This document shows, piece after piece, positions 1 through 4,371 of a stretch of 23,541 bases of DNA. The notes under the pieces were generated by a model, which saw only the letters and a list, made by a program, of their open reading frames with translations, was not told where the DNA came from and ran no database searches. Source of the stretch: a virus; the IMG/VR virus record IMGVR_UViG_3300023082_000037, positions 1-23,541 of that record; one strand, written 5' to 3'. The position numbers and the translations under genes were made by a program. The stretch's first letter is position 1. Each line of letters opens with the position of its first letter.

Positions 1-42
1 ACCGCCAGGGTGGGGGTTTGGGTGTTTGGTGATGGCAGTCAT
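1..42 (-). CDS. Start of a leftward phage gene (partial, unknown product)
   Basis: An ATG on the minus strand at 42-40 opens a frame that runs off the left edge. The visible residues are MTAITKHPNPHPGG. A GGAG Shine-Dalgarno lies 7 bases upstream, which is well placed for this start. The gene is the first one downstream of the leftward promoter and boxA leader at 165-312, so it is probably the first gene of the left early operon, the place where lambda keeps its N and recombination genes. Fourteen residues are too few to assign a family. The start is supported by the ribosome binding site and the context; the function is unknown. Confidence 0.55.
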   Translation of the reverse strand, partial: MTAITKHPNPHPGG

Positions 43-64
43 TTCGTACTCCGGTTGTCATCCC

Positions 65-88
65 AAAGCACCCTCGTGGAAGGTGCTT
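65..88. other. Inverted repeat in the leader of the leftward operon
   Basis: On the minus strand AAGCACC and GGTGCTT form a 7-bp stem around an 8- to 10-base loop, about 20 bases before the GGAG of the gene starting at 42. No T-tract follows it in either direction, so it is not a convincing terminator. It may shape the leader RNA or affect access to the ribosome binding site. It is a structural observation only. Confidence 0.35.
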
Positions 89-164
89 CAGTGATGCCTT
101 GTTTGTTCAGCCGACCTTGCGCACCGATAGTCGGATACGGAAGCGGGCAGTGTTTCGGTGTTGT

Positions 165-221
165 CCCTGAACTCAAACGCCGTATGGCGTCAGGGTCTGT
201 CTCTATCGATGTTAAAGAGCG
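165..221 (-). promoter_or_regulatory. boxA and hairpin: candidate nut-type antitermination site
   Basis: Read on the minus strand, 221-210 is CGCTCTTTAACA. This matches the core of boxA (rrn-type GCTCTTTAACA; lambda CGCTCTTA), the RNA element bound by NusB/S10. About 15 bases further downstream, 195-165 can fold. CCCTGA at 195-190 pairs with TCAGGG at 170-165, and an inner ACGCC-ATAC-GGCGT hairpin sits at 190-177. A boxA followed by a hairpin, inside the untranslated leader of an early operon, is the layout of a nut site. No matching boxA was seen downstream of the rightward promoter. Whether a phage N-like protein or only host Nus factors act here cannot be told, because the left operon lies outside the window. 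Confidence 0.6.
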
Positions 222-269
222 GCGAGACCGCTGGCCTCTGTCGCTGCTGTATGTCGCTGCGATGAGGTA

Positions 270-299
270 AAGTTACCGTACGGTAATAATGCTCGTCAA
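270..299 (-). promoter_or_regulatory. Candidate leftward early promoter (pL-like)
   Basis: On the minus strand a good -35 (TTGACG, 299-294) is followed after 18 bases by a weak -10 (TAACTT, 275-270). The two operator palindromes at 273-286 and 299-312 cover the -10/spacer and the -35 edge, so a repressor bound there would block RNA polymerase. The promoter points to the boxA leader and the gene starting at 42. The weak -10 lowers confidence; the operator overlap and the leader raise it. Confidence 0.5.
273..286. promoter_or_regulatory. Operator oL-a (TTACCGTACGGTAA)
   Basis: This is a perfect 14-bp palindrome with half-site TTACC. The same arms, TTACC-N4-GGTAA, recur at 299-312 and three times beside the repressor gene (2355-2408). 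Repeated 14-bp palindromes at both flanks of an immunity region are characteristic of CI/Cro operators. It overlaps the -10 and spacer of the leftward promoter. Its centre is 26 bp from the neighbouring site. Confidence 0.65.
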
Positions 300-312
300 T
301 ACCTATTGGTAA
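299..312. promoter_or_regulatory. Operator oL-b (ATACCTATTGGTAA)
   Basis: This is an imperfect copy of the 14-bp operator, with a single mismatch in the outer arm positions. It lies 26 bp centre to centre from oL-a, at the upstream edge of the leftward -35 element. The paired arrangement suggests cooperative binding by the S24 repressor encoded at 1641-2333. Confidence 0.6.
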
Positions 313-331
313 TAAAATATCTCGCAGGCGT

Positions 332-358
332 AAAAAAACCCGCACAGGGCGGGCTTTT
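332..358 (-). terminator. Intrinsic terminator after the DUF1654 gene
   Basis: CCCGC (339-343) and GCGGG (349-353) form a short GC stem around a 5-base loop. On the minus strand the stem is followed by seven T residues (338-332), just past the stop codon of the leftward gene at 369-617. Four T residues on the plus strand (355-358) give it weaker activity in the other direction. It also separates this gene from the pL region. Confidence 0.75.
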
Positions 359-368
359 CGCTTGAGTG

Positions 369-617
369 TCAGTAGTCAGGGCTGGCTTCCCAGGCGATAT
401 GGACGCCTCCGTCCTCTTGCCGCACGACCGTAACGCTCTCCGTATCCGATATCGCCTCGACGATTTCATCCCAGTCTTCTTGGGCTTCGTCTGCGGCCTT
501 GGTGATCACGACCTTGCGTGCCAACTGGGCTGCAGGTGAGTTGATAACCGCTTTGATCCGGCCGCCGAGGACTTCGAGAGTGGTAGGGGGGGAGGCCTTG
601 CGCTGGGATTTCGCCAT
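369..617 (-). CDS. DUF1654 domain protein
   Basis: This 82-aa protein starts MAKSQRKASPP and has the pattern I associate with DUF1654 of Pseudomonadaceae: a TxxEVLGGRIKAVINSPAAQLARK segment, an acidic middle (EAQEDWDEIVEAISD), and an ending VTVVRQEDGGVHIAWE. The function of the family is not established. The start at 617 is preferred over an upstream ATG at 692 because GGAG lies 7 bases before it, and because the upstream extension (MYSFCCLLSP...) would be translated across the LexA-type box. The gene is a single-gene transcription unit with its own terminator at 332-358. The promoter region carries a LexA-type box, so expression may be SOS-controlled. The family assignment is from memory of the domain. 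Confidence 0.75.
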   Translation of the reverse strand: MAKSQRKASPPTTLEVLGGRIKAVINSPAAQLARKVVITKAADEAQEDWDEIVEAISDTESVTVVRQEDGGVHIAWEASPDY

Positions 618-637
618 GGTACTGCTCCGTGCGATGA

Positions 638-653
638 CTGTATGGTTAGACAG
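638..653. promoter_or_regulatory. LexA-type SOS box
   Basis: CTGT-ATGGTTAG-ACAG matches the CTGT-N8-ACAG LexA consensus of gammaproteobacteria. It lies about 20 bases upstream of the DUF1654 start and overlaps the candidate -10 (TACTGT on the minus strand, 655-650), which is the position where LexA represses. The half-sites are exact; the AT-rich centre is only partly conserved (TATAAATATA in strong boxes). Confidence 0.6.
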
Positions 654-678
654 TATTCCGACAGGAGATAGAAGGCAA
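650..678 (-). promoter_or_regulatory. Candidate promoter of the DUF1654 gene
   Basis: On the minus strand TTGCCT (678-673) and TACTGT (655-650) are separated by 17 bases. Both hexamers are mediocre. The spacing, the LexA-type box overlapping the -10, and the palindrome just upstream of the -35 support this as the control region. Transcription would start near 643. Confidence 0.4.
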
Positions 679-680
679 CA

Positions 681-704
681 AAAAGAGTACATATGTACTC
701 TTTT
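681..704. promoter_or_regulatory. Perfect 24-bp palindrome (possible regulator site)
   Basis: The half-site AAAAGAGTACAT is followed by its exact reverse complement. It sits 2 bases upstream of the candidate -35 of the DUF1654 gene and between two leftward transcription units. It does not resemble the TTACC-N4-GGTAA operators or a LexA box, so a different dimeric regulator is possible. The A and T tails also make it a weak, low-GC hairpin that could act as a backup bidirectional terminator. Confidence 0.55.
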
Positions 705-717
705 GGCGATTAGGCAT

Positions 718-739
718 AAAAAAACCCGCGCTCGGCGGG
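718..739 (-). terminator. Intrinsic terminator of the repressor operon
   Basis: CCCGC (725-729) and GCGGG (735-739) pair around a 5-base loop. On the minus strand seven T residues follow (724-718). It lies about 20 bases past the stop of the leftward gene at 759-1607, so it ends the repressor and membrane-protein transcript. It resembles the terminator at 332-358 in both stem and tail. Confidence 0.75.
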
Positions 740-758
740 CCTCTTCGTGGAATCCGGC

Positions 759-1607
759 TCAGCCCTGTTTAGGTTGTGGTTGCGCCGATGCGGCGGGAGC
801 CGCCTGACTCTGCTTAAGCTGTCTTAGCAGCTCTTGAGTTTCCTTCAATACATTCTCATTAGCCGACTGAATCTTCTGTGCGTCCTGTCCTGAGGAAAAT
901 ATTCCTGAAGCGCTGCTGATAATGGTCGAGTTGACGCCCCAAACACCTAATACGATTGCAATCCCAATCGTAAGCATGCCTCCAAGCGTTGCGCGATTTG
1001 AATTTCGGACCAACCGAACACTTTCAACTATTTTCGCTTCGAAGCTGTTGACCTTCGTGTCTATCCCGCTAATTTTTGTTGAAATACCATCCAATTTTGA
1101 ATCTATTATTTTATCTCTGTCATCTAGCCTCAGGAGCACGGCCGCACTTCTTTCCGAGTGCGCGCTATCACGGGCATCCAATTCACGCTGGAACGCCTCA
1201 TGGCGGATCGAAAGCTCCTTGCGCAGCAATTCATCGCGCAGCTCGAGCTCTTTGCGGTAGTCGGTAATTTCGGTCATGTCTTCAGTATTGCCGGGAAGGG
1301 GCTTGCTGTCCACGGGGAGGTCAGAAACTCGTACCCATCCCTCCGGCGGCCCTAATGCTTCAATCCAAGCAATCTGCTGCTCGCGTGCCTTTTTGATTTC
1401 GGTGTCGAGACGACGCTGTGCCTCTTCGACACTCAATGGCGCCTCGGATACAGAAGTCTTTACGTGTCCAGCCAGAATAGCGTCACGCAATGCTCGCGTG
1501 TTGTCTTTCCTGAACAGACCCCGAAAGTCTCTCGCAGCCTCATCTTTCGTCGCCCCCGGCTTCTTTGCTTGAGTCTTTTTCTGTTCTCCCTGATGCCGAA
1601 CGACCAT
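759..1607 (-). CDS. Membrane-anchored coiled-coil protein in the repressor operon
   Basis: I do not recognise a family for this 282-aa protein. It has a basic N-terminus rich in K and Q (1-25), a charged helical region, and a long run of heptad-like charged residues with alternating D/E/R/K (about 110-200). One clear transmembrane segment lies at about 207-229 (ATLGGMLTIGIAIVLGVWG). A second short helix and a Q/A/P-rich tail follow (240-282). The positive-inside trend suggests that most of the protein is cytoplasmic with a C-terminal tail outside, but this is uncertain. It lies 33 bases downstream of the repressor gene in the same direction with no terminator between, so it should be expressed in the lysogen. 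That is the place of lambda rexAB and of many superinfection-exclusion genes. A defence role is inference from position only. Confidence 0.7.
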   Translation of the reverse strand: MVVRHQGEQKKTQAKKPGATKDEAARDFRGLFRKDNTRALRDAILAGHVKTSVSEAPLSVEEAQRRLDTEIKKAREQQIAWIEALGPPEGWVRVSDLPVDSKPLPGNTEDMTEITDYRKELELRDELLRKELSIRHEAFQRELDARDSAHSERSAAVLLRLDDRDKIIDSKLDGISTKISGIDTKVNSFEAKIVESVRLVRNSNRATLGGMLTIGIAIVLGVWGVNSTIISSASGIFSSGQDAQKIQSANENVLKETQELLRQLKQSQAAPAASAQPQPKQG

Positions 1608-1640
1608 GACCCTTGTCCTCTTGAAGTGCTCGATGCAGGC

Positions 1641-2333
1641 TCAAATCCTTCCTAAGACCTTGCTAGGCCCCAGAATTGCACCGACATAATGGATTGTTTC
1701 GATATCTTTCCATGCAACCGTTCGCCGCTCTCCATATGCGGTGTTGATCGACATCAGGCTAACCCCTTCCTCGGTTTCAAAGAGCAGCTCTTTCACCATG
1801 CTTTGCCCGTCGTTGGTAGTGACCATCACGTATTCACCAGCGACCAGGCGGTGATTAGGCTCGCAAACAGCAACCCATCCGCTGCGTATTGCTGGAGCCA
1901 TCGAATCGCCTTTCAATCTCAGCGCATAGGCGTCAGCGTCACGGGAATAGGTCTCGACCCAGCCGGCCGTATGGTCGAGGCCCGTCCAGTGACCTTCTGG
2001 TCCGAGCTGCGCAGTACCCACGATGTCAATTTTTCGCACTGCTGAAACAATTGGAGGGCCTGGCTCAACGTTGGATTCAAACCCGTTAACAGGCATCTCC
2101 TCAGAGTCGAGCGCGTAGCGCGGCAGCCCGAACGCCACTTCGACTTCTCTAGCGAAGTCTTCGCCGATCGTTTTCGACCCCGGTTTTGAGGGGTCCGACA
2201 AATATCTGGACAGCAGATTCTGCGGCTTATCGAGAAGCTCAGCCAGTCGCGACTGGGCGCCCCTGACGCCTACCCCAAATCTCTCGTTCATCAGTCGTTG
2301 CAGGTTGTGCCTGCGCACTTCGCGTATGTCCAT
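1641..2333 (-). CDS. cI: CI-like phage repressor, HTH plus S24 peptidase
   Basis: This 230-aa protein has an N-terminal HTH (about 10-70; RLAELLDKPQNLLSRYLS is the helix-turn-helix stretch) and a LexA-like S24 domain (about 100-228). The catalytic serine is Ser144 in GDSMAP and the lysine is Lys181 in SMVKEL. The protein should repress the early promoters through the TTACC-N4-GGTAA sites and lose activity by RecA-stimulated self-cleavage. The region where cleavage is expected reads VGTAQLGPEG, so the bond aligned with LexA Ala-Gly would be Leu110-Gly111. The ATG at 2333 has no good Shine-Dalgarno. Translation may be weak or leaderless, which is common for maintenance repressors. It is close in type to Pseudomonas PrtR-like regulators. 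Confidence 0.9.
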   Translation of the reverse strand: MDIREVRRHNLQRLMNERFGVGVRGAQSRLAELLDKPQNLLSRYLSDPSKPGSKTIGEDFAREVEVAFGLPRYALDSEEMPVNGFESNVEPGPPIVSAVRKIDIVGTAQLGPEGHWTGLDHTAGWVETYSRDADAYALRLKGDSMAPAIRSGWVAVCEPNHRLVAGEYVMVTTNDGQSMVKELLFETEEGVSLMSINTAYGERRTVAWKDIETIHYVGAILGPSKVLGRI

Positions 2334-2354
2334 GCGTTGGATTTTCTGTGTCCA

Positions 2355-2368
2355 TTACTTTCTGGTAA
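2355..2368. promoter_or_regulatory. Operator oR-a (TTACTTTCTGGTAA)
   Basis: This is a copy of the 14-bp TTACC-N4-GGTAA operator with one arm mismatch. It is the copy nearest the repressor start (about 22 bases upstream), so it is the likely site for negative control of the repressor's own promoter. Its centre is 15 bp from the next site. Confidence 0.6.
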
Positions 2369-2369
2369 A

Positions 2370-2383
2370 TGACCAGTTGGTAT
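2370..2383. promoter_or_regulatory. Operator oR-b (TGACCAGTTGGTAT)
   Basis: This is a 14-bp operator copy with the ACC-N4-GGT core intact and weaker outer bases. It touches the -35 (2383-2388) of the rightward promoter, between oR-a and oR-c. Confidence 0.55.
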
Positions 2384-2412
2384 TGATCTTTAGGTTACCG
2401 GTCGGTAATAAT
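2383..2412 (+). promoter_or_regulatory. Candidate rightward early promoter (pR-like)
   Basis: TTGATC (2383-2388) and AATAAT (2407-2412) are separated by 18 bases. Transcription would start near 2419, just before the GGAG of the cro-like gene. Operator oR-c lies inside the spacer and reaches the -10, and oR-b abuts the -35, so repressor binding would silence it. Confidence 0.6.
2395..2408. promoter_or_regulatory. Operator oR-c (TTACCGGTCGGTAA)
   Basis: This operator has perfect 5-base arms, identical to those of oL-a at 273-286. It sits in the spacer and -10 of the rightward promoter. Its centre is 25 bp from oR-b, close to the 26-bp spacing of the left pair. Confidence 0.65.
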
Positions 2413-2436: not shown

Positions 2437-2667
2437 ATGCGTACTAGGAATTCGACGTTGCTGAAGTGGCTGAAGACCGCAAGCGATGCGGCAGTTTCAA
2501 GCACCGGAACGAGTCGGGCATATCTGCGGCTCATTGCTTACGGACATAAAACTGCGTCAGCGGAAATAGCAGTGCGAACCGAGACGGCAACGAAGGGCGA
2601 GGTCACTCGCCAAGATCTTCGCCCGGATGACTGGCAGCAGATCTGGCCAGAGCTTGCGATGACTTGA
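2437..2667 (+). CDS. cro: Cro-like HTH regulator (YdaS/Cro type)
   Basis: This 76-aa protein is divergent from the repressor gene. The stretch RAYLRLIAYGHKTASAEIAVRTETATKGEVTRQDLRPDDW has the order seen in Cro/YdaS-type HTH proteins: a recognition helix, then a conserved GEVTRxDLRPD ending. The ATG at 2437 is chosen because GGAG lies 8 bases upstream and the candidate -10 is at 2407. An upstream in-frame start at 2305 would be placed before the promoter. Its expected job is to compete with the repressor at the operators and favour lytic growth. No CII-like gene follows. Confidence 0.85.
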   Translation: MRTRNSTLLKWLKTASDAAVSSTGTSRAYLRLIAYGHKTASAEIAVRTETATKGEVTRQDLRPDDWQQIWPELAMT

Positions 2668-3583: not shown

Positions 3584-4371
3584 GTGTTCAAGCCATGGCC
3601 TGGGCGATGAAAATTCGCAAGGCTGACCTTTCTGATTCATCTGCCCGCCATGTCCTGCTATGTCTTGCCAACTACGCTGGCGTTGATGGTCGCGGTTGCT
3701 TCCCGGCGGCTTCCACGCTGAGCGAAGACACAGGCCTTTCTGAGCGGACTGTTCGCTACAAACTTGAGCTTCTGCGCGAAGCCGGTTGGATCGTCCGGGG
3801 CAACCAAGCGCTTGCCGCTGTTTACATCGACGAGCGCGACAGACGCCCCGTGGTGTATGACCTCCACCTGTCACGGGGTGCAAATTCTGCACCCCGGTCA
3901 AAGCGGGGTGCAGATGACGGCACGGGGTGCAACCTACAACAGGACGGGGTGCAGATTTCGACAGAACGGGGTGCAGAATCTGCACCCAATACACCACTTA
4001 ACCATCAAGTAACCGAACAGCTGCAGCAGCGCGAGATTTCGGACGTTATCGACGAGCAGGATCGAAAAGCCCTGGAACCTTTCGATGACCGCCAGCGCTT
4101 TGCCATGTTCGCCACCTGGGAGGCTGACGAAAAGGGGATGTCTGATCAGATCGCCATCGCAGGCTTGCCGCCAGAGTCGGCTACCGAAGACGCGCTGAAG
4201 ACGTTCAAAGGTTTCTTCGTTGCTCGCCCGTCCGTTTTGAACAGTTCCGCCGGTTGGTGCTTCGAGTTCGTGAAGTGGATCAAACGGCAGCGGGTGCAGG
4301 CTGCTGCATCCCCAGCAGAAGACGGTGAAGCTGTTCCAGGCAACTGGGCAGCGAAGGGGGTGGTGCTGTGA
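3580..4371 (+). CDS. O-like replication initiator with HTH and DnaT-like domains
   Basis: This 263-aa protein has a winged-HTH at about 10-75 (SARHVLLCLANYAG...TGLSERTVRYKLELLREAGW). A low-complexity linker covers about 97-145. The C-terminal region, about 170-240, resembles the DnaT DNA-binding domain (LKTFKGFFVARPS...WCFEFVKWIKRQ). The linker is encoded by the iteron array at 3874-3987, just as lambda O carries ori inside its gene. It should bind these repeats and recruit the P-like loader encoded next. It starts at a GTG that overlaps the antirepressor stop and ends in a 4-base overlap with the P-like gene. The replication role is well supported by the domain order and neighbours. Confidence 0.85.
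   Translation: MSVQAMAWAMKIRKADLSDSSARHVLLCLANYAGVDGRGCFPAASTLSEDTGLSERTVRYKLELLREAGWIVRGNQALAAVYIDERDRRPVVYDLHLSRGANSAPRSKRGADDGTGCNLQQDGVQISTERGAESAPNTPLNHQVTEQLQQREISDVIDEQDRKALEPFDDRQRFAMFATWEADEKGMSDQIAIAGLPPESATEDALKTFKGFFVARPSVLNSSAGWCFEFVKWIKRQRVQAAASPAEDGEAVPGNWAAKGVVL
3874..3987 (+). repeat. Iteron array, candidate replication origin
   Basis: Five direct copies of CGGGGTGCA start at 3874, 3904, 3923, 3945 and 3967, so spacings are 30, 19, 22 and 22 bases, about two helical turns for the later ones. Inverted copies at 3888-3896 (TGCACCCCG) and 3981-3987 (TGCACCC) make outer palindromes at both ends. A less GC-rich stretch (3988-4020) follows, a possible unwinding region. The array lies in the linker of the O-like gene. 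Repeats of this kind are the binding sites of phage initiators. Confidence 0.75.

Follow-up and report, generated by a model that had tools for sequence, protein, structure and literature searches.

Five putative operators of a single sequence type in a lambdoid immunity region accompany the DNA-binding domain of the repressor

The left part of the viral record IMGVR_UViG_3300023082_000037 carries two clusters of similar inverted repeats on either side of a repressor operon, which raises the question of whether these repeats are the operators of a lysis/lysogeny switch, which protein binds them, and how much of the phage immunity can be read from their sequence. The window analyzed here is the entire 23,541-base IMG/VR record, and all of it was scanned for the motif. 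The preliminary description had listed five TTACC-N4-GGTAA sites in a lambda-style arrangement, two of them with perfect arms; all five were found at the coordinates claimed, as follows:

273-286, minus strand: oL1, TTACCGTACGGTAA, no mismatches over the ten arm bases, in the spacer/-10 region of candidate promoter pL
299-312, minus strand: oL2, TTACCAATAGGTAT on the minus strand, one arm mismatch
2355-2368, minus strand: oR3, TTACCAGAAAGTAA on the minus strand, one arm mismatch, containing most of the candidate pRM -35 box
2370-2383, minus strand: oR2, ATACCAACTGGTCA on the minus strand, two arm mismatches
2395-2408, minus strand: oR1, TTACCGACCGGTAA on the minus strand, no arm mismatches, in the spacer/-10 region of candidate promoter pR

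The start-to-start spacing of 26 bp at the left and of 15 and 25 bp at the right was reproduced, as were the two perfect-arm copies, of which only 273-286 is a full palindrome, the other (2395-2408) having an asymmetric center. These figures are far from chance. Two sites with perfect arms were observed against a mean of 0.0 in 400 dinucleotide-preserving shuffles, and four sites with at most one mismatch against a mean of 0.14 and a maximum of 2, while neither cluster was reproduced in any of the 400 shuffles. A random frequency of the motif elsewhere in the phage had been named beforehand as the outcome that would speak against the operators; all four sites of the window with at most one mismatch fall inside the two clusters. 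Matches with two mismatches outside the clusters (at 3999, 9830, and 21380) are at the chance level, with 8 in total versus 3.3 expected. A chance origin of the sites was rejected on these statistics.

The genes of the immunity region are:

1-42, minus strand: beginning of the first gene of the leftward pL operon, truncated where the record ends and preceded by a GGAG ribosome site
369-692, minus strand: DUF1654 protein, 107 aa, between cI and oL
759-1607, minus strand: 282-aa protein, between cI and oL, for which no family match was obtained
1641-2333, minus strand: CI-type repressor, 230 aa, with an N-terminal HTH (recognition helix 38-45) and an S24 peptidase domain
2437-2667, plus strand: Cro-type repressor of the YdaS family, 76 aa

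The divergent repressor and cro genes flank oR, and the context assumed for these sites is borne out by the family assignments of both products. The S24 domain of the repressor matches its Pfam family with an E-value of 1e-16, and Ser144 and Lys181 are invariant across 20 relatives; the classical Ala-Gly cleavage site was not pinned down in this protein. A search of PDB sequences gave no solved chain similar to the repressor. The AlphaFold model has a four-helix N-terminal HTH of high confidence (helices 3-19, 26-34, 38-45, and 58-67); by Foldseek, the whole predicted repressor is closest to lambda CI, and a further match, with 30-31% identity across 77-79 columns, is to the repressor of a Salmonella temperate phage (5d50). 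The small rightward protein matches PF15943 above the curated cut-off (E 3e-8) and the Cro structures 8co2 and 8c7k with E-values of 5e-10 and 9e-10. Rightward of cro lie the Rha/ANT, DnaT-like, and lambda-P-like replication genes and an integrase gene.

Relatives of the whole repressor again have the oR triplet at an equal position, and usually the oL pair where the locus extends far enough. For a comparison independent of the sites, 80 viral loci were picked solely via alignment of the repressor DNA-binding domain, the operators being ignored. Distances were measured from the repressor start, where the three right sites stand at about -74, -49, and -34, and a locus was counted if it had oR1 with at most one mismatch at -72 to -76 and oR3 with at most two mismatches at -33 to -37. 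By this rule, 53 of the 58 best-matching loci (listed as L103 to L157) carry both sites, and none of the 22 weakest-matching ones (L158-L179) does. Several of the 80 loci are near-copies, so that there are fewer than 80 independent cases. Of 23,100 positions drawn at random in these loci, 9 passed the rule. Several HTH relatives (L144, L148, L149, L150, and L154) lack the sites or have degenerate ones. Searching the other way round, with the oR signature as the query, gave 42 loci, and in 40 of them a repressor-like reading frame adjoins the site; L037 is a clear exception, and L045 stops at the sequence edge.

Exchanges between the two parts of the repressor point in the same direction. The repressor of L006 is 78% identical to that of the window in its C-terminal part and has an unrelated HTH, and its 26-kb record contains no site with at most one mismatch, so that this locus presents itself as a natural domain swap. 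Similarly, the sites are absent from phage PS-1, which has only the C-terminal part in common, and from Turba, which has a different HTH. Conversely, L012, L097, L021, and others keep both the HTH and the sites, with repressors of only 144-177 residues in which no S24 region is obvious C-terminally. The C-terminal parts of the short repressors (144-166 aa) of L012, L097, L020, L021, and L043 are unlike the S24 region, which suggests induction by means other than RecA-stimulated cleavage.

Sequence and comparison, then, show that the sites exist, that their positions are fixed, and that they are linked to the repressor DNA-binding domain, and the oL/oR reading with two plus three operators is supported. 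We consider it very likely that the five sites are operators of a lambda-type lysis/lysogeny switch bound by dimers of the S24 repressor, and probably by the YdaS-type Cro as well. The sites might instead mainly serve Cro or the downstream Rha/ANT regulator, with the S24 repressor recognizing something else, since Cro-type proteins normally use the operators of the repressor and a Rha/ANT protein is encoded after cro; however, the presence of sites tracks the repressor HTH over the 80 loci chosen by this domain alone, and identical sites stand beside quite different cro genes (MEKLLAYLNSL... versus MRTRNSTLLKWLK...), which makes such an assignment improbable.

The association with Pseudomonas was supported by the closest named relatives, Pseudomonas sp. 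dw_358 and P. paraversuta, and by the oL pair, which occurs in 6 of 399 Pseudomonas genomes, at one place each, the reversed-pattern control giving no hit in the 399. Among named phages, the layout is present in PseuP_224 (Pseudomonas protegens) and in mEp043 and CharmingMan (Escherichia), and JBD68 (P. aeruginosa) has a TAACC variant of the arm. We found no description of the TTACC-N4-GGTAA motif or of the operators of mEp043 or CharmingMan in the open literature. This distribution bears on a further candidate, a host regulator acting on the early promoters of the phage. Such regulation is a general possibility for any site overlapping phage promoters, and nothing more specific was found in its favor; the rarity of the oL pair in the host genomes, and the fact that the viral sites adjoin one repressor type at fixed distances, make it very improbable, and it was rejected as an explanation.

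The overlap of the operators with the -10 and -35 elements of pL and pR, as claimed earlier, also stood. Three details go beyond that account: the candidate pRM -35 box lies within oR3, the repressor mRNA is predicted to be leaderless, and the bases at which oR2 and oL2 break the palindrome are the first ones of putative -35 boxes. The promoters, all three predicted, are:

270-299, minus strand: candidate pL, -35 TTGACG (299-294), 18 bp, weak -10 TAACTT (275-270), read from the sequence
2341-2369, minus strand: candidate pRM, -35 TTTACC (2369-2364), 17 bp, -10 GAAAAT (2346-2341)
2383-2412, plus strand: candidate pR, -35 TTGATC, 18 bp, -10 AATAAT

Their anatomy was compared in 90 immunity regions forming 53 clusters, gathered by the oR1/oR3 rule; the arms served to select these clusters, and arm conservation among them is therefore not independent, unlike that in the 80-locus comparison. 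The oL pair is found in 40 of the 53 clusters, usually 26 or 25 bp apart (the arms were fixed in this search). The pR spacer is 17 or 18 in 51 of 53 clusters, and an oR1-oR2 spacing of 24 or 25 bp tends to accompany a promoter spacer of 17 or 18 bp. Where oR2 and oL2 deviate from the palindrome, the deviating base opens the -35 box of pR and pL, respectively: base 2383 of oR2 is the first T of the former, and base 299, the last of oL2, is the first T of the latter. Position 1 of oR2, a site outside the selection rule, is A in 49 of 53 clusters, and the last base of oL2 is T in each of the 40 pairs, the search pattern having permitted A or T. The -35 boxes of the relatives read TTGATT, TTGACT, or similar for pR and TTGAC for pL, and the GGTATTGAC junction at pL is found again in most of them. 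The oR1 and oL1 sites terminate at the -10 boxes of pR and pL, respectively. The pRM -35 box TTTACC is oR3 plus one preceding base, and in 44 of 53 clusters the best pRM -10 (GAnnAT-like) is placed at -12 or -11 relative to the repressor ATG. Since this -10 ends about 6 bases before the ATG, the pRM start is predicted at the ATG itself and the repressor transcript should be leaderless, like that of lambda.

One could argue from the same overlaps that the repeats are promoter sequence, alike through their -35 and -10 elements, as the sites cover parts of pL, pR, and pRM and hexamer parts lie inside them. Promoter function leaves unexplained the dyad arms around N4, the perfect copies, the 15/25/26 spacing, and the loss of the sites with a change of the HTH; promoter similarity alone was rejected, and we give it hardly any credence.

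With the sites taken as operators, a switch can be proposed. Repressor on oR1 and oR2 would cover both the -10 and -35 boxes of pR and turn off cro and the replication genes, and on oL1 and oL2 it would likewise cover and stop pL. A dimer at oR2 would lie directly upstream of the pRM -35 box, with its center at about -44 from the predicted start, and could activate the repressor's own leaderless transcript; filling of oR3, which contains this -35 box, would turn pRM off. Cro would prefer oR3 and thus block pRM in lytic growth, and after DNA damage the S24 domain would cleave itself under stimulation by RecA, which would relieve repression. Binding, cooperativity, and looping are inferred throughout. 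In lambda, a tetramer loop between oL3 and oR3 assists the filling of oR3. No such assistance is expected here because oL3 is absent, and an octamer loop joining oL1-oL2 to oR1-oR2 over about 2.1 kb would still be possible.

The region is of a known kind, a lambdoid immunity region in the five-operator (2 + 3) form as in 933W, but its operator sequence and spacing are distinct. The lambda-style description held for the divergent cI and cro genes around three oR sites over pR and pRM, for oL lying beyond the cI operon, for an S24 repressor with a predicted fold closest to lambda CI, and for oR2 adjoining and oR3 overlying the pRM -35 box, with a leaderless cI predicted here. It did not hold for oL, where lambda has three sites (oL1-3) and both the window and its relatives have two, nor for the 14-bp TTACC-N4-GGTAA sites with oR2 and oR3 nearly abutting (15 bp), nor for Cro, which is of the YdaS type. 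The count of predicted operators is closest to that of the 933W/H-19B type, which has five operators in total (PMC3317979) and no OL3 (PMC5977221), as here; the sites annotated there are 17 bp long with an N5-type center and TTTATC/GATAAA arms. The repressor of the Stx phage ST2-8624 is 31% identical to that of the window, and its sites have related arms (TTTACCATTTTGATAAA), but that phage possesses an OR0 and its operator sequence is unlike that of the window. In CP-933P, the CI-like repressor PaaR2 and a YdaS-type Cro share operators and the repressor gene is leaderless (PMC8630535); the window has the same opposition of a CI-like repressor and a YdaS-type Cro, and a leaderless repressor is predicted, whereas the CP-933P repeats are 18 bp long with GTTTAGTAA half-sites and four of them stand in the intergenic region. 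The E. coli phage mEp043 and phage CharmingMan share the oR triplet (-73/-48/-33 or -74/-49/-34) and an oL pair 25-26 bp apart, and differ by an HTH of another subgroup and by inner operator bases that are mostly C/T, not G; in mEp043, cII and N are annotated. Finally, phiV10 (epsilon15-like) has an HTH relative of the repressor and clusters of TTACC/GGTAA arms flanking the repressor gene on both sides, with an N5 center (e.g., TTACCTGTTGGGTAA) and other spacing. Two more perfect TTACC-N5-GGTAA copies lie about 2.4 kb off on the cro side in phiV10.

The proposal that immunity specificity can be read from these sites has to be divided. The arms alone give no such specificity, because they recur in at least 53 repressor clusters (drawn at 85% DNA-binding-domain identity), and the arms of the predicted operators define a superfamily rather than an immunity group; the inner bases may carry specificity, the differences between groups being confined to them. 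In particular, nine clusters have Arg at repressor residue 4, and base 6 is G in 32 of their 34 oR1 and oL1 half-sites; where this residue is Tyr, Phe, Ser, His, or Asn, nearly every cluster has C or T at base 6. Residue 4 is the top single column by mutual information, followed by residues 55 and 40. On the tree, the Arg/G clusters form a single clade, which means that the association rests on approximately one evolutionary change, and it is offered as a lead, not a rule. Residue 4 was briefly considered as part of a lambda-type N-terminal arm, which was dropped as the model has helix 1 at 3-19, and no direct contact with base 6 is claimed because the residue lies within this modeled helix. 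More speculatively, TTACC-N4-GGTAA might be one old operator code, nearly constant while C-terminal parts are swapped, through which prophages would cross-regulate between species, with specificity limited to base 6 (G where residue 4 is Arg, C/T where it is Tyr, Phe, Ser, or His); we put this forward tentatively, as an idea that may well prove wrong.

What the comparison adds is the family-wide constancy of the operator, the promoter logic, and caution about the arms as a marker of immunity groups. The sequence rule locates the immunity region with its promoters and delimits the cI-to-oL cargo interval on either side in many unstudied temperate phages, and it predicts which repressors should recognize one another's operators, a testable map of superinfection immunity. 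Since the operator and DNA-binding domain are constant while the C-terminal part swaps, the family also lends itself to natural experiments that ask whether repressor cooperativity or the promoters determine the operator spacing.

Several minor observations concern the neighborhood of the sites. The cargo position between cI and oL is occupied in lambda by rexAB. In the relatives, this interval varies from near zero to several kb, and in L147, L104, L012, L115, and L015 it holds defense-like genes, with matches to AriA/AriB (PARIS), PD-Lambda-2_B, and PDC-M63A/B and a weak HipA-like match. Terminator-like hairpins are located at 323-353, between the cI operon and pL, and at 2775-2792, after cro and before Rha/ANT (tR-like); a hairpin with a T run near 717-745, after the 282-aa gene, was spotted by eye.

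The pL transcript contains an exact boxA, CGCTCTTTAACA, at 221-210 on the minus strand, the sole exact match to the pattern in the window. It is followed by hairpins, and the leader (43-262, minus strand) has a fold z-score of -2.5. Of 67 relatives, 17 have the core CGCTCTT no more than 260 bp from oL1, mostly 45-57 bp after it. The pL leader may well include a nut-like antitermination site; the position of an N gene would be off the record. Rfam gave only sub-threshold matches, and the leader conserved among relatives was unmatched in the one locus tested. That leader, shared by about 20 relatives (L104, L010, L101, L118, L018, and others) approximately 30-250 bp after oL1, has at least four hairpins with 555 of 559 cells paired and several compensatory changes, and is possibly an antitermination or other cis-acting RNA.
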